Shown here piece after piece: positions 396-5,668 of a stretch of 11,298 bases of DNA; position 1 is the first letter of the stretch, and every line of letters starts with the position of its first letter. Origin of the DNA: Planctomycetaceae bacterium. Lineage in GTDB: Bacteria > Planctomycetota > Planctomycetia > Planctomycetales > Planctomycetaceae. The stretch covers positions 1 through 11,298 of the forward strand of contig JAGQQP010000074.1 in assembly GCA_020426085.1 (NCBI GenBank), written 5' to 3'. The notes beneath the pieces are model-generated. The model was given only the letters and a program-made list of their open reading frames with translations. It was not told where the DNA came from and did no database searches. A program made the translations under genes and the position numbers.

Positions 396-1286
396 TCAGT
401 GGTTGCTACGTGTGACACCAACAAAATAAGCAGATTCGGTCCAGTGCTTGAACCAGACATGCAGTTGTCCTGCCATTTGTTCCGGCTCCAGAAGTCCTGC
501 TTCCGCGAATTCGCTGATCGCATCACCGACTGTGAGCCCGTGATGCAGTCGAGAAAGCAGAAAGTACTCTGTTTCAGAAATCGCGGCACGACGCACGATA
601 TAATTGCGGCGAGTAATTGCCAGGCGGGTGGTTTGGGCGGCGGGGATGTCAGGAATTTCGTCACGTTTTGTGCTGGAGATGTATTCCTGCACAGGGAACT
701 GAAACTCCATCAGCCGAAAACAGGGAGCCATCTGTAAGGTCAGATCGGGCCATTCTTCCGGAGATATCGTATTCAGAGTCTCCGCTGTCAGCAGATCCTG
801 TTTTTCGATTCCCGGCCCATCGAATACTTCGCTGTAGACGCGTTCCAGTGTCGCCAGTTCGATCAGAAAATCAGTCCAGTCAGGTGTCTCTGCATTCGAT
901 TCCGGTTCTGGTCGACTCTCCTGCAGGAATTGAGGAAACCGGGCCCCCAGTTCCCCGAGCGTATAACTGGCAGGAGGATATTTTTGCAGATATTGCAGAC
1001 TGAATGCGCCGAAGGCAGCGGTCCCCATCGCCGACACCAGGGCCGCATATTCCTCACTGAGGCATTCCAGCAGACGCGCGTAGTAGGCATTGGCATAAAT
1101 GCCGATGCGCTCTTGACTCGTCTGCTGACTGGAACGGGTAATCACCGATTCCAGCTGGTCGTTTGCCAGCGGGATTTCCCGTTGTGCTTCTTCCGAAGCG
1201 ATGCCCGCTTCGACTCCGCCCGGCGCACTGATCACGGTCTGCATCCAGCGCTGAATCTGATCCAGTTTACGTTGCTTCTGGTTCAT
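396..1286 (-). CDS. DUF2063 / HvfC-BufC family peptide-modification partner protein
   Basis: This 296-residue protein belongs to the DUF2063 family (HvfC/BufC), the usual partner of DUF692/MNIO enzymes, thought to present the precursor peptide to the enzyme. The family core is clear: a helical N-terminal domain with [18 protein letters not shown] at about residues 63-80, an aromatic and Leu-rich region ending in GARFPQFL (114-121), and a helix [16 protein letters not shown] (141-156). The C-terminal part (about 225-290) reads like a small winged-helix fold and could be the peptide-binding module; that is inference. No signal peptide is present, so it acts in the cytoplasm. Its ATG overlaps the stop of the upstream MNIO gene as ATGA, implying translational coupling. 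The length is close to the family norm. Family assignment is firm; the exact biochemical role is inferred from relatives. Confidence 0.9.
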
Positions 1287-2212
1287 TCAAAGTCCGCCAC
1301 GATAAACGAAGCAGGATGGGGAATGGCTTGCGTATCAACATGGACAGGCTCTGCCTCTGAAACCACTACGTTCGGGACGGCGAGATTCTCATCCATGTAC
1401 TGACGGGCTTTTAATACTTCCTGATGTACGACAGGAAACGGTGGAATCTCTGCATCCCATTCCAGTAAAGTCGCGACTCCGCCGGTGCGCTGATGCAGTA
1501 AACGGAACAGATTCCAGACCGGGTCAACCACATGTCCGTCATGGGTATCGATCAGATGCGTACCACAGTTAGTGTGCCCGGCCAGATGACACTGCACAAC
1601 GCGTTCAGCTGGAATCGCCTCCACATAAGCAACGGGATCAAATTCATGATTCACACTGGAAACATAGACATTATTGACGTCCAGCAGAAGTCCACAGTCT
1701 GCTTCTTCCGCCATACGACAGACGAATTCAGATTCACTCATTGTGGAATCCTGAAATTCGAGGTAGCTGCTGGGGTTCTCCAGGACCAGTGGTCGTTCGA
1801 GGATGTCCTGCACGATCCCTATCCGTTCCACCAGATGCGAAAGGGTCGCTTCGTTATAAGGAATGGGCAGCAGATCATGTGAATTACGGCCGGCCACACC
1901 GGTCCAGCAGACGTGATCGGAAATCCAGCGTGCGTTAATCCCTTCCGCCAGCCGTTTCAGTTTTTGCAGATAGTCACGGTTCAGTGGGTCTGTACTGCCT
2001 ATCGACAGTGAGACGCCATGCATGACGATTGGATAGCGTTCTGCAATCTGTTCCAGCACAGCACGCGGGCGACCGTTTGAATCCATGAAGTTTTCTGAAA
2101 TGATCTCGAACCAGTCGACATCCGGCTGATGTTCCAGAATGTGAGAGAAGTGAACCGTTCGCAACCCCACTCCCAACCCCAGATTCTCATGTCCCAGACG
2201 CGGTTTCCGCAT
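1283..2212 (-). CDS. DUF692 / MNIO family multinuclear non-heme iron oxygenase (bufferin-maturase-like)
   Basis: This 309-residue TIM-barrel enzyme is of the DUF692 family (MNIO; relatives include MbnB, TglH, ChrH and the BufB/HvfB group). Characterised members use a di- or tri-iron centre and O2 to modify cysteines of a precursor peptide, for example into thiooxazole or oxazolone-thioamide groups. The family motifs appear in order: [10 protein letters not shown] (64-73), SDHVCW (98-103), LENPSSYL (144-151), [10 protein letters not shown] (175-184), CHLAGH (208-213), DTHDGH (222-227) and LLEWD (249-253). These hold the expected His, Asp and Glu ligands, so the enzyme looks intact. No signal peptide is present, so modification would be cytoplasmic. 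It lies 126 bp downstream of the Cys-rich precursor gene and overlaps the DUF2063 gene. A weak AGAG-type ribosome site precedes the ATG. The exact product chemistry cannot be read from the sequence. Confidence 0.93.
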
Positions 2213-2276
2213 TTGTCTCTACTTTCGTGCCTCGAGAGAAATTACAAAGCAGTGCATTTACCTCAGGTCATGATAC

Positions 2277-2319
2277 GAAGCGGGCTCCTTAACAATCAAT
2301 TGAGAAGGAGCCCGACTTC
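2277..2319 (-). promoter_or_regulatory. Intercistronic hairpin between precursor and MNIO genes
   Basis: Left arm GAAGCGGGCTCCTT (2277-2290) pairs with AAGGAGCCCG (2305-2314) and, after one bulged A, CTTC (2316-2319). This gives a GC-rich stem of 14 pairs with a 14-nt loop. It lies 20 bp after the precursor stop and 64 bp before the MNIO start. No T-tract follows on the minus strand, so a full terminator is unlikely. A partial attenuator or a 3'-end stabiliser that keeps precursor mRNA more abundant than enzyme mRNA fits the position. Confidence 0.7.
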
Positions 2320-2338
2320 CATGTCTGAGAAATGACCC

Positions 2339-2863
2339 TTATTTTTTCTTGGGTTCCGGGGCAGGTCCGACTTTCTTACCCGCTTTCTCCATTGCTTTTT
2401 CAAATTCTGCTCGTGCGAGCTTCCAGGCATCCGGCATCAGAGGTATGTGGCACCCCCCTTTACCTTTACATGAATTCATACCAGGATTGCTACCACACCC
2501 GCCCTGGCCTTTACATTCGTTTTCGCCAGAACAGCTGTGTTCTGCTACAGAAGCACAGGCTCCCAGACCGGCACATTCATTTTCAATTCCCGCATGTTTC
2601 CCTTTGCAGGTATTCAATCCGCGGCAGACATGAGGTTCCGTCATCAACAGGCTGACATCTTTATCACCAGTTTCAGCTCCTCCTTCAGCAGCGTGATCAT
2701 GATCGTCATGACCACCGGCAGTCGTGCTACCCGCTTCAGGATCGGTGGCAGGTGCAGGCGGAGTCGCAGGCTGACAGCCTGTCATGGAACCAGCAACCAC
2801 TCCACCAAATGCAGCAAAGGTGAGTCGATTAAAATCGCGTCGATTCATTTCTGGACGTTTCAT
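2339..2863 (-). CDS. Cys-rich bufferin-like RiPP precursor, Tat-type lipoprotein
   Basis: This 174-residue protein is the likely substrate of the adjacent MNIO enzyme. The N-terminus has a twin-arginine motif NRRDFNRL (7-14), a hydrophobic stretch (15-27) and a lipobox-like MTGC ending at Cys30, suggesting Tat export and lipid anchoring. A Pro/Ala linker follows, then a His/Asp patch (HDDHDH, 52-57). The core (80-138) has nine cysteines at 80, 86, 97, 103, 111, 117, 123, 132 and 138. All pairs are spaced Cx5C, and the spans follow C-[RASK]-G-x-[NG]-x-C. A charged C-terminal helix (145-164) and a Lys tail end the protein. The start is supported by CGAGGT just upstream; an alternative ATG is residue 6. 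Known relatives carry modified cysteines that bind copper; copper binding here is inferred. An unmodified metallothionein-like protein is the main alternative. Confidence 0.85.
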   Translation of the reverse strand: MKRPEMNRRDFNRLTFAAFGGVVAGSMTGCQPATPPAPATDPEAGSTTAGGHDDHDHAAEGGAETGDKDVSLLMTEPHVCRGLNTCKGKHAGIENECAGLGACASVAEHSCSGENECKGQGGCGSNPGMNSCKGKGGCHIPLMPDAWKLARAEFEKAMEKAGKKVGPAPEPKKK

Positions 2864-2945: not shown

Positions 2946-2961
2946 TGTGAGTTATCTCACA
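2946..2961. promoter_or_regulatory. CRP/FNR-family operator, perfect TGTGA-N6-TCACA
   Basis: The sequence TGTGAGTTATCTCACA is a perfect dyad (TGTGAG, TTAT, CTCACA) and matches all ten informative bases of the CRP-type consensus. The flank on the right, TCACATTT, also fits the extended consensus. It is centred about 90 bp upstream of the precursor start codon, a usual distance for activation. The cognate regulator is not in the window. Confidence 0.65.
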
Positions 2962-3105: not shown

Positions 3106-3121
3106 TGTAATCCATCTCACA
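3106..3121. promoter_or_regulatory. Second CRP-like site, TGTAA-N6-TCACA
   Basis: TGTAATCCATCTCACA matches nine of ten CRP-type consensus positions. Its centre is 160 bp from the centre of the perfect site at 2946-2961. On the minus strand both sites share TGTGAGAT. It may be an auxiliary site for the precursor operon. A lone half-site, TCACATTT, follows at 3212-3219. Confidence 0.45.
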
Positions 3122-3825: not shown

Positions 3826-4638
3826 ATGCGTGCCGGGCACTTAATTCTATTTTCACTTAGTTTAGTCACCATTCCTTTATTTTCTGTCTCCACACATGCA
3901 GAAGAGATCAAATGGCAAACCAATCTGAAGCAGGCCGCCCAACAGGCCCGTTCTGAAGACAAAGCCATGTTGATTCAAATTGGTGCTTCATGGTGTGGCT
4001 TCTGCCATAAAATGGATCGGGAAACATACAAAGACGCGAAAGTCATCAAACACGTCAACTCCTGCTTTGTTCCCGTTCGTGTGGATGCAGACGAAAACTC
4101 TGAGCTGGTTGACGCGATTGGGGTTGCCGGCCTGCCCACAACTGTCATCATTACTCCGGAACTGAAAATCGTGAAAAAGATTTCCGGTTATGTCGCTGCC
4201 CCGGAAATGCAGGGGCATCTCAGTAAAATTTGCCTGGTGAATCACGAACAGGCAGCGCCTGCCCGGAAACAGCAACCCATTCAGAAAATGAGTCAGAAAC
4301 AGGTCGCACCTGAATTCGCCTTCAAGGGTATCTGTCTGGTAAGCATGCTGGATGATCAGCAACTGACTGAAGGAAAACCGGAATATACATCGAACTATCG
4401 AAACCAGACAGTCTGTTTCGCTACGAAAGAGCACAAGCAGAAATTTGATGCAGCCCCTGAGCAATACTGGCCTGCCTTCGAAGGAAAGTGTCGCGTCTCA
4501 CAACTGGAACGAAATCAGTCAGTAGAAGGAAATCCCTACGCGGGCGGCGTGTATCGTGAACGGCTGGTATTTTTCACATCAGAATCGGAACGCGATAAAT
4601 TTACTGCCAATCCAGGTTACTACCTGATCAAGAAATAA
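3826..4638 (+). CDS. Secreted thioredoxin-fold protein with two C-terminal YHS-like repeats
   Basis: This 270-residue envelope protein starts with a Sec signal peptide (hydrophobic about 6-22, likely cleavage after THA, residue 25). A thioredoxin fold follows (about 28-135) with the redox motif WCGFC (Cys57, Cys60) and the cis-proline loop GLPT (Pro104), so it is probably an active disulfide oxidoreductase of the DUF255/thioredoxin-like group. After a Gln/Lys-rich linker come two related repeats of about 50 residues (166-217 and 218-268) resembling YHS-type domains: a GxC start, an aromatic strand, then a KF-x2-APEQY-type helix. In these repeats the usual second Cys of CxxC is absent (GICLVS, GKCRVS). 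AAGGA eight bases before the ATG supports the start. It converges on a gene whose repeats are homologous. Substrate is unknown; electron or metal delivery in the periplasm is plausible. Confidence 0.82.
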   Translation: MRAGHLILFSLSLVTIPLFSVSTHAEEIKWQTNLKQAAQQARSEDKAMLIQIGASWCGFCHKMDRETYKDAKVIKHVNSCFVPVRVDADENSELVDAIGVAGLPTTVIITPELKIVKKISGYVAAPEMQGHLSKICLVNHEQAAPARKQQPIQKMSQKQVAPEFAFKGICLVSMLDDQQLTEGKPEYTSNYRNQTVCFATKEHKQKFDAAPEQYWPAFEGKCRVSQLERNQSVEGNPYAGGVYRERLVFFTSESERDKFTANPGYYLIKK

Positions 4639-4771: not shown

Positions 4772-5668
4772 TTACTTCACGTTTTCAATTGACTGGGGAT
4801 CCAGCCAGACAAACTTCCCTTTATGAGCAATCTGTTTGCCTTTCACGCTGACCTTTAAGCTCTGAAACCGGGATTTGTATAAATCCGGATGGGAAGCATG
4901 TGCTCCTTCAATGACATAAATTTTTCCGTCATCGCTTTTGACAGCCAGACCTAATTCATCCGGATTCTGTTTGGGATGCACTCCAAATTCACAAGCGGCA
5001 CAACCGGTGGTCCCACTGATGGAAACCAGCTCAGATGCAGCAGGCGAACTGCTGACAGCAGCCTGCTTCGCAGTTAAGCCAGCGACATATTTAGCAGGAG
5101 CTTTCTGAAATTTCTGCATGACAGCCTCGCTGGGGAACTGATAACGCAGTCCCTGGTAGATGGCCGTAAACTCCGGTTTTCCAGCTACGTCTTTCCCGCC
5201 ATCAACTTTACAGACGATACATTTTCCGTCACAGGCCAGATCGACGTCAGCATATTCTGCGGGAGATTTATCAAAAACAGCTTTGATACTCTCATTCGGG
5301 AACAGAAAGACGCGTCCTTCATAAAAACTGATATGATCAATCTTGCCCGGGTTCCGCACTCCATCATGATGAGCAAAGCAGACGGTGCAGTCTCCTTTCA
5401 ATGCGGGAACATATTTTTCCGGAGCTTCTGTAAATTTCTGTTTTACTTCTTCTGATGGAAACAGATAAGTCTGACCATCATAGACGACGGCAAACTCCGG
5501 CTTTCCAGCAACCACTTTCTTTCCATTCACCAGACAGACCGCACATTTTCCATCAAGGGCTAAAGGGACCTGTTTTTTCTGACCGTTTTCTGCAGCATTC
5601 ACAGCACCACTGAGACAGACTACGGATACCAGTACCGCTGCTGTCATGACAAAACGAAATAAATTCAT
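4772..5668 (-). CDS. Secreted protein with three YHS-like CxVC repeats and a CxxC C-terminal domain
   Basis: This 298-residue protein has a Sec signal peptide (hydrophobic about 4-22, cleavage near NAA at 24-26). It then has three repeats of about 50 residues beginning DGKCAVC (39-45), GDCTVC (92-97) and DGKCIVC (147-153). Each continues with an FP-[SN]-E strand and a KF-x2-[AS]P-x2-Y-type helix, as in YHS-type domains. A C-terminal part (about 219-298) has GCAACEFGV and a beta-rich region recalling DUF6370-type proteins; that link is tentative. The paired cysteines suggest metal binding or redox chemistry in the periplasm. The start is placed at the internal ATG because AGGAG sits at proper spacing before it and it begins the signal peptide; the frame stays open 252 bp further upstream. 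Repeats two and three are less alike than one and three. The repeats are homologous to those of the convergent thioredoxin fusion. Confidence 0.8.
   Translation of the reverse strand: MNLFRFVMTAAVLVSVVCLSGAVNAAENGQKKQVPLALDGKCAVCLVNGKKVVAGKPEFAVVYDGQTYLFPSEEVKQKFTEAPEKYVPALKGDCTVCFAHHDGVRNPGKIDHISFYEGRVFLFPNESIKAVFDKSPAEYADVDLACDGKCIVCKVDGGKDVAGKPEFTAIYQGLRYQFPSEAVMQKFQKAPAKYVAGLTAKQAAVSSSPAASELVSISGTTGCAACEFGVHPKQNPDELGLAVKSDDGKIYVIEGAHASHPDLYKSRFQSLKVSVKGKQIAHKGKFVWLDPQSIENVK

Follow-up and report, generated by a model that had tools for sequence, protein, structure and literature searches.

The closest described relatives of the locus analysed here are the Buf2 bufferins (Buf_6/12Cys, NCBIfam BufA2) and the DAG-RiPPs DybA and NedA. 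Bufferins have been described as Sec-exported (Antoine et al. 2025, PMC12452194), and that paper gives predicted lipoprotein signals for about 16% of Buf2, whose lipoprotein precursors are likewise taken to be exported by Sec. The same authors reason that some mechanism must stop the export of signal-bearing precursors before modification, and they mention preliminary data according to which the signal peptide of Buf1 is part of the recognition sequence. NedA is described in PMC12636315 as an oxazolin that was produced in lipidated form in E. coli, and lipidation of DybA and NedA has been reported by Chen et al. 2025 (PMC12636315). A lipid anchor on bufferin-type precursors is already anticipated in print. 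The earlier note on this DNA had set Tat export and membrane anchoring against the usual Sec type signal of known bufferins; in view of the prediction for Buf2, a lipid anchor is not new, whereas the Tat route was not found in print. A word search of the main text of PMC12452194 and PMC12636315 did not return 'Tat', and no description of Tat-exported bufferins was found in the literature searched, most subscription journals being outside its scope. The only paper found with both 'bufferins' and 'Tat' (PMC12509749) concerns an outer membrane channel.

The present locus lies in a planctomycete window, i.e. the whole stretch of DNA analysed, with a length of 11,298 nucleotides. It resembles Buf2 in the order of precursor, MNIO and DUF2063 genes, in its CxGxNxC and CKGxGGC motifs and, as far as the predicted lipoproteins among Buf2 are concerned, in the lipobox of its precursor. 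In contrast to Buf2, the precursor carries nine core cysteines instead of 6 or 12, a Tat-type instead of a Sec signal and a conserved C-terminal helix. With the DAG-RiPPs it shares a lipobox on a putative MNIO substrate, as exemplified by NedA, which is both lipidated and modified in E. coli; it differs from them according to PMC12636315 in that NedA has EGKCG motifs and DybA a ChrH-type MNIO. Its RRDF-type signal is found likewise in planctomycete Tat-dependent proteins, from which the precursor is set apart by its small size, its many cysteines, a core predicted to be disordered and a non-hydrophobic +4 position. The probable product of the operon is a metal trap that is rich in cysteine and chemically modified. 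Beyond this, we favour, with somewhat better than even confidence, the reading of a self-contained bufferin-type RiPP operon whose modified precursor would be exported by Tat, lipidated and held at a membrane, where it would buffer metal.

Layout of the operon and its enzymes

The three genes form a compact unit on the minus strand (Table 1), in which the stop of the MNIO gene and the start of the DUF2063 gene share ATGA at 1283-1286. The claim of the earlier note that a three-gene bufferin-like operon with its last two genes coupled by ATGA is present was borne out, the MNIO scoring above the BufB cut-off and the partner above that of Pfam DUF2063. Comparison of the gene order in relatives, a check which that note had proposed, gave precursor, MNIO and DUF2063 genes in this order at 16 of 16 same-genus loci. 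Since the unit is kept at all of these loci, it is not a chance arrangement; the MNIO itself was found at 83-93% identity in all 16 same-genus genomes searched and had a match in 24 of 40 relatives searched. Hence, a bufferin-like unit is retained in every searched genome of one planctomycete genus.

Table 1 Features of the operon and its surroundings in the window
Feature	Position	Strand	Remarks
Precursor (BufA-like), 174 aa	2339-2863	-	Tat-type signal, lipobox, linker, 9-Cys core, C-terminal helix
MNIO (DUF692) enzyme, BufB type, 309 aa	1283-2212	-	PF05114, NCBIfam MNIO_BufB
DUF2063 partner protein (PME type 1), 296 aa	396-1286	-	PF09836
Hairpin between precursor and MNIO genes, 10-bp stem	2281-2314	-	conservation in same-genus sequences
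Perfect dyad TGTGAG-ATAA-CTCACA (minus-strand reading), candidate operator	2946-2961		82 bp upstream of precursor start
Imperfect second dyad TGTGAGATGGATTACA (minus strand), possible distal operator	3106-3121		partly conserved, read by eye; putative
Thioredoxin-YHS protein	3826-4638	+	adjoins operon
YHS-domain protein	4772-5668	-	adjoins operon

The MNIO matches PF05114 with an E value of 1.2e-109 and the NCBIfam model MNIO_BufB with 361 bits (cut-off 310), and it is the only MNIO found in the window's genome, an assembly which is 76% complete. Across 85 aligned rows of its family, 43 polar positions are conserved at a level of 97% or more; L107, L127, L153 and L161 were excluded before this count, which left 84 rows including the window's own locus. 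In a quick tree, MNIOs standing beside members of the nine-cysteine family cluster (4 changes compared with a mean of 19 in shuffles), although some rows are misplaced there, L107 and L127 being likely wrong picks and L153 and L161 having odd precursors. The partner protein reaches 62.2 bits against PF09836 (E value 5.6e-17, cut-off 27.2), but stays below the cut-off for the RRE-type C-terminus (PF22106, 21.9 vs 27) as well as for the HvfC model (54.1 vs 142). Among its aligned relatives, DUF2063 is recognized in 18/18 and NGO1945_C, the RRE part, in 12/18 at E ≤0.001. At locus L037, one open frame about 83 bases past the precursor frame is recognized by the MNIO profile as well as by that of DUF2063, which suggests that the two enzymes may be naturally fused there; as the MNIO profile includes a DUF2063 stretch through this very frame, it also matches DUF2063 frames. 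A frame of 660 residues at L153:2-1981 adjoins an MNIO and consists of a large domain followed by a bufferin-like Cys-rich stretch, possibly representing a protein-sized MNIO substrate.

PADLOC gave no match for the precursor, the MNIO or the DUF2063 protein, and an anti-phage role was set aside. The same applies to a structured RNA, for which no Rfam match was obtained at gathering scores.

A nine-cysteine precursor family with a constant twin arginine

The precursor begins with MKRPEMNRRDFNRL...SMTGC and is composed of an NRRDFNRL signal, an MTGC lipobox, an acidic/His-rich linker, a nine-cysteine core and a conserved C-terminal helix. Its ten cysteines comprise Cys30 of the lipobox and positions 80, 86, 97, 103, 111, 117, 123, 132 and 138 of the core. 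In an alignment of 52 precursors (the window's and 51 chosen from 120 listed homologues), no variation is seen at R8, R9, F11, C30 and the nine cysteines of the core, nor at W147, R151, G166, A168 and P169 of the tail. Homologues number 417 at E ≤1e-3, and the named ones among the 120 listed belong to Gimesia and other planctomycetes; the best 80 of 202 loci from a genome scan are mostly Planctomycetota with some Verrucomicrobiota. An AlphaFold2 model of low confidence (mean pLDDT 56) shows an N-terminal and a C-terminal helix around a disordered core, with pLDDT below 50 for residues 41-67 and 76-116, and sequence searches of the PDB yielded nothing convincingly related to either the precursor or the DUF2063 partner. 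At L076, L093, L110 and L162, two different precursor genes of the family occur in tandem or close together.

Classification as BufA2 was considered and rejected, because the precursor scores only 26.3 bits against that model (NCBIfam NF050166, cut-off 60) and has nine core cysteines. The relationship is nonetheless visible across the family: the BufA2 model matches all 52 chosen members at E ≤1 (best 4.1e-8), and 101 of 108 distinct family copies have exactly 9 Cys from the core start onward. Judged by its sequence, the precursor belongs to a sister family of the Buf2 bufferins with nine core cysteines, occurring mainly in Planctomycetota, and is not classified as Buf2 itself. The adjamnio-I family was set aside as well, as its description (PMC12452194) gives 8-21 Cys and no Sec signal but a PME type 2 partner, although odd members may still belong there.

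All 120 homologues listed out of 417 have the twin arginine, and so do all 107 intact distinct genome copies of the family, in none of which it is replaced by RK, KR or KK; in a 108th copy a frame break divides the gene, and the motif lies in the other half. Phenylalanine at +3 is kept in 104/107 copies. Arginine and lysine swap at +5 (R in 53, K in 33, together 86 of 107) but not at the twin arginine. A lipobox, in contrast, is recognized by pattern in 81/107 copies, and most of the 26 members without it end their signal in AxA-like sites instead. Thus, the twin arginine is the constant part of the family and the lipid anchor its variable part. A tree of the core, built on few columns, shows 8 changes of the lipobox label in the form drawn, but well-supported branches require no more than 2. 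For the lipid anchoring proposed in the earlier note, this means that the MTGC lipobox supports it in the window's lineage, yet the anchor is not fixed in the family.

The Tat assignment itself is better supported now than it was on the basis of a single sequence, and the conserved RRxF points to export of the precursor by this route. Two features do not fit the classical picture. Classical Tat signals have a hydrophobic residue at +4, a position occupied by H, N, S, G or T in 97/107 family copies, and the window's precursor has no match to the Tat-signal model TIGR01409 at E ≤1. A hydrophobic +4 residue is also found in most same-genus proteins with Tat-type starts. TIGR01409 matches 10 of the 52 precursors (best E 0.0061) and a Rieske Tat-signal family 14 of them (best 6e-4), both at E ≤1. 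All eight genomes tested encode TatC, the window's own included, and three genomes gave 50, 81 and 85 Tat-signal matches at E ≤1. The start of a same-genus sulfatase (L160:1499-3220), MEQSPMNRRDFNKLT, is closely like that of the precursor's signal. A further argument of the earlier note, namely that Tat carries folded proteins and would hence suit a precursor modified in the cytoplasm, is weak here since the core is predicted to be disordered in the low-confidence model.

Alternative readings and the proposed route

The most serious competitor keeps the operon and its chemistry, but lets the precursor leave by Sec like the known bufferins and undergo lipoprotein processing afterwards, the two arginines being no more than a basic n-region. 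Precedent speaks for it, as the Sec assignment of Antoine et al. extends to lipoprotein Buf2, and so does the h-region, whose mean hydrophobicity in family precursors (1.62, n=81; 1.65, n=26) exceeds the value of 1.36 for Tat proteins of the genus (n=21, picked by eye and biased to strong model matches). It is at the same time lower than in Sec-type Buf2 (2.07, n=15, i.e. the 16 Sec-type lipoprotein signals without L156), so that the family is intermediate and differs from both groups. A mere basic n-region is hard to reconcile with an RR pair that stays unreplaced although basic residues swap at +5, or with the retention of F at +3, and we therefore regard export by Sec as a clearly less probable, roughly one-in-five alternative. 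Weaker precursors of the phylum, mostly with 12 Cys, bear on this question too: sorted by eye, because the RR pattern had picked up false stretches further upstream in four cases (L148, L150 and L153 among them), 16 of 21 have Sec-type lipoprotein signals, 3 have Tat-type signals and 2 neither. The Sec-type cases lend the Sec reading some weight. They also argue against another reading, by which RRxF is kept because the MNIO/DUF2063 complex docks on it and export may follow either route: these precursors lack RR and stand beside related MNIOs, which shows that MNIO systems in general can do without RR. Docking would agree with the preliminary Buf1 data and with the nearly exceptionless co-occurrence of precursor and MNIO, but it leaves the similar N-terminus on a sulfatase unaccounted for and seems rather unlikely to us.

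That co-occurrence also bears on a further reading, in which the precursor stays unmodified, as a lipoprotein resembling metallothionein, while the MNIO has a different substrate. Precursor-profile matches, weak ones included, occur in 53 of 294 planctomycete genomes of the phylum sample, and each of the 53 has an MNIO (strong in 52, distant in one, G100), compared with 85/294 genomes overall. At the level of loci the tie is looser: an MNIO adjoins 75 of 108 distinct family copies and is absent beside 30, the contig end being too near in 3, which favours independence of the two. Yet 30 of the 31 genomes whose locus showed no MNIO have some MNIO, 28 of them a full-length strong one, one a partial match and one a distant paralogue only; G328 and G317 account for the genome without any MNIO and the one with just the paralogue. 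Together with the neighbourhood of both genes at the 16 same-genus loci, this renders an unmodified metallothionein highly improbable.

Under the favoured reading of a Tat-exported and lipidated bufferin, for which we infer the chemistry, the use of Tat, the lipidation, the metal and the regulation, the precursor would be made in the cytoplasm, where MNIO and DUF2063 partner would oxidize cysteines of the nine-cysteine core to thiooxazole or a related ring, as concluded from characterized bufferins. The Tat translocon would then export the modified precursor by means of its twin-arginine signal. In the window's lineage, Cys30 would be lipidated and the precursor retained on a membrane, facing the periplasm, where it would buffer excess copper or a similar soft metal. 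The dyad operator may control the three-gene unit, and the hairpin after the precursor gene may keep the enzymes scarcer than their substrate.

Tat-like signals are also encountered beyond the nine-cysteine family, namely in some 12-Cys relatives among Buf2. A search starting from one of the three weaker precursors with Tat-type signals found the RR motif in 95 of 120 listed relatives (of 5468), a count which includes some spurious RR. Ranking by the core alone, 73 of 120 listed matches (of 6108) scored Tat-like and 45 Sec-like; as the ranking favours matches similar to a Tat-type query, this is not a general share, and at least two of the 73 (P0261 and P0273) resemble Sec signals in which RR occurs by chance. 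One RR-bearing relative is named Woeseiaceae bacterium, so that the occurrence of Tat-like signals among relatives of Buf2 seems to extend beyond planctomycetes. Whether a large subgroup of MNIO-made metallophores, comprising some 12-Cys Buf2 as well as the nine-cysteine family of Planctomycetota and Verrucomicrobiota, uses Tat in place of Sec is in our view an evenly balanced matter. If so, release would be restricted to the modified form, perhaps loaded with metal, either through Tat proofreading or through a DUF2063 partner acting like a chaperone, which would answer how a signal-bearing precursor escapes export before modification; it would also be the first Tat-exported RiPP class findable in the literature searched. 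A Tat-tagged branch makes the question of premature export raised by Antoine et al. testable, as modification becomes separable from export.

Candidate regulatory elements and genomic neighbours

Upstream of the precursor gene, the dyad TGTGAGATAACTCACA lies within 22 consecutive columns that are invariant in 17 same-genus sequences, and the perfect site is the only exact one in the window's genome (76% complete). Of 9 genomes, 6 including the window's own have a single site of the general pattern TGTGAG-N4-CTCACA, and the other 3 have two. A reversed control pattern is likewise found at one place in 5/9 genomes, so that it is the conservation of the dyad which counts and not its rarity. Among 112 upstream stretches, 16 contain the exact dyad (12 of the same genus, 4 others) and 2 more a version with one mismatch; reversed controls gave none at either level in these stretches. 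A global CRP-like regulon was rejected, as TGTGAN6TCACA is not consistently more frequent than its control in three genomes (6 v 6, 14 v 4, 7 v 5). In two same-genus genomes (L226 and L227), a second exact TGTGAG-N4-CTCACA is situated between two divergent frames. The hairpin comprises 9 predicted pairs over the 17 same-genus sequences, one of them with compensatory changes, and is followed by at least 4 T in 14/17 of these, the window's own not being one of the 14. Perfect stems of at least 8 pairs are, as a raw count, present between precursor and MNIO in 31 of 59 family loci.

The window extends 395 bases past the last gene of the operon; the far downstream side was hence seen in two other, complete genomes of the genus, in which ten flanking frames were scanned. 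In agreement with the earlier note, which had reported no DoxX gene next to the operon, none was present among these frames, a further difference from Buf2, and DoxX is not among the listed families (25 of 67) that match at least 2 of 48 flanking proteins, so it was dismissed as a recurrent neighbour. No copper genes were recognized among the flanks scanned in these two genomes. Downstream of the operon, both genomes carry an Amidase_2 gene. On the upstream side, both have a thioredoxin-YHS gene, in one case with a DUF547 gene in between; the flank protein is 71% identical to the window's thioredoxin-YHS protein, and one of the two genomes has a YHS protein beyond it. The thioredoxin-YHS and YHS neighbours make a metal or redox link to the operon possible.
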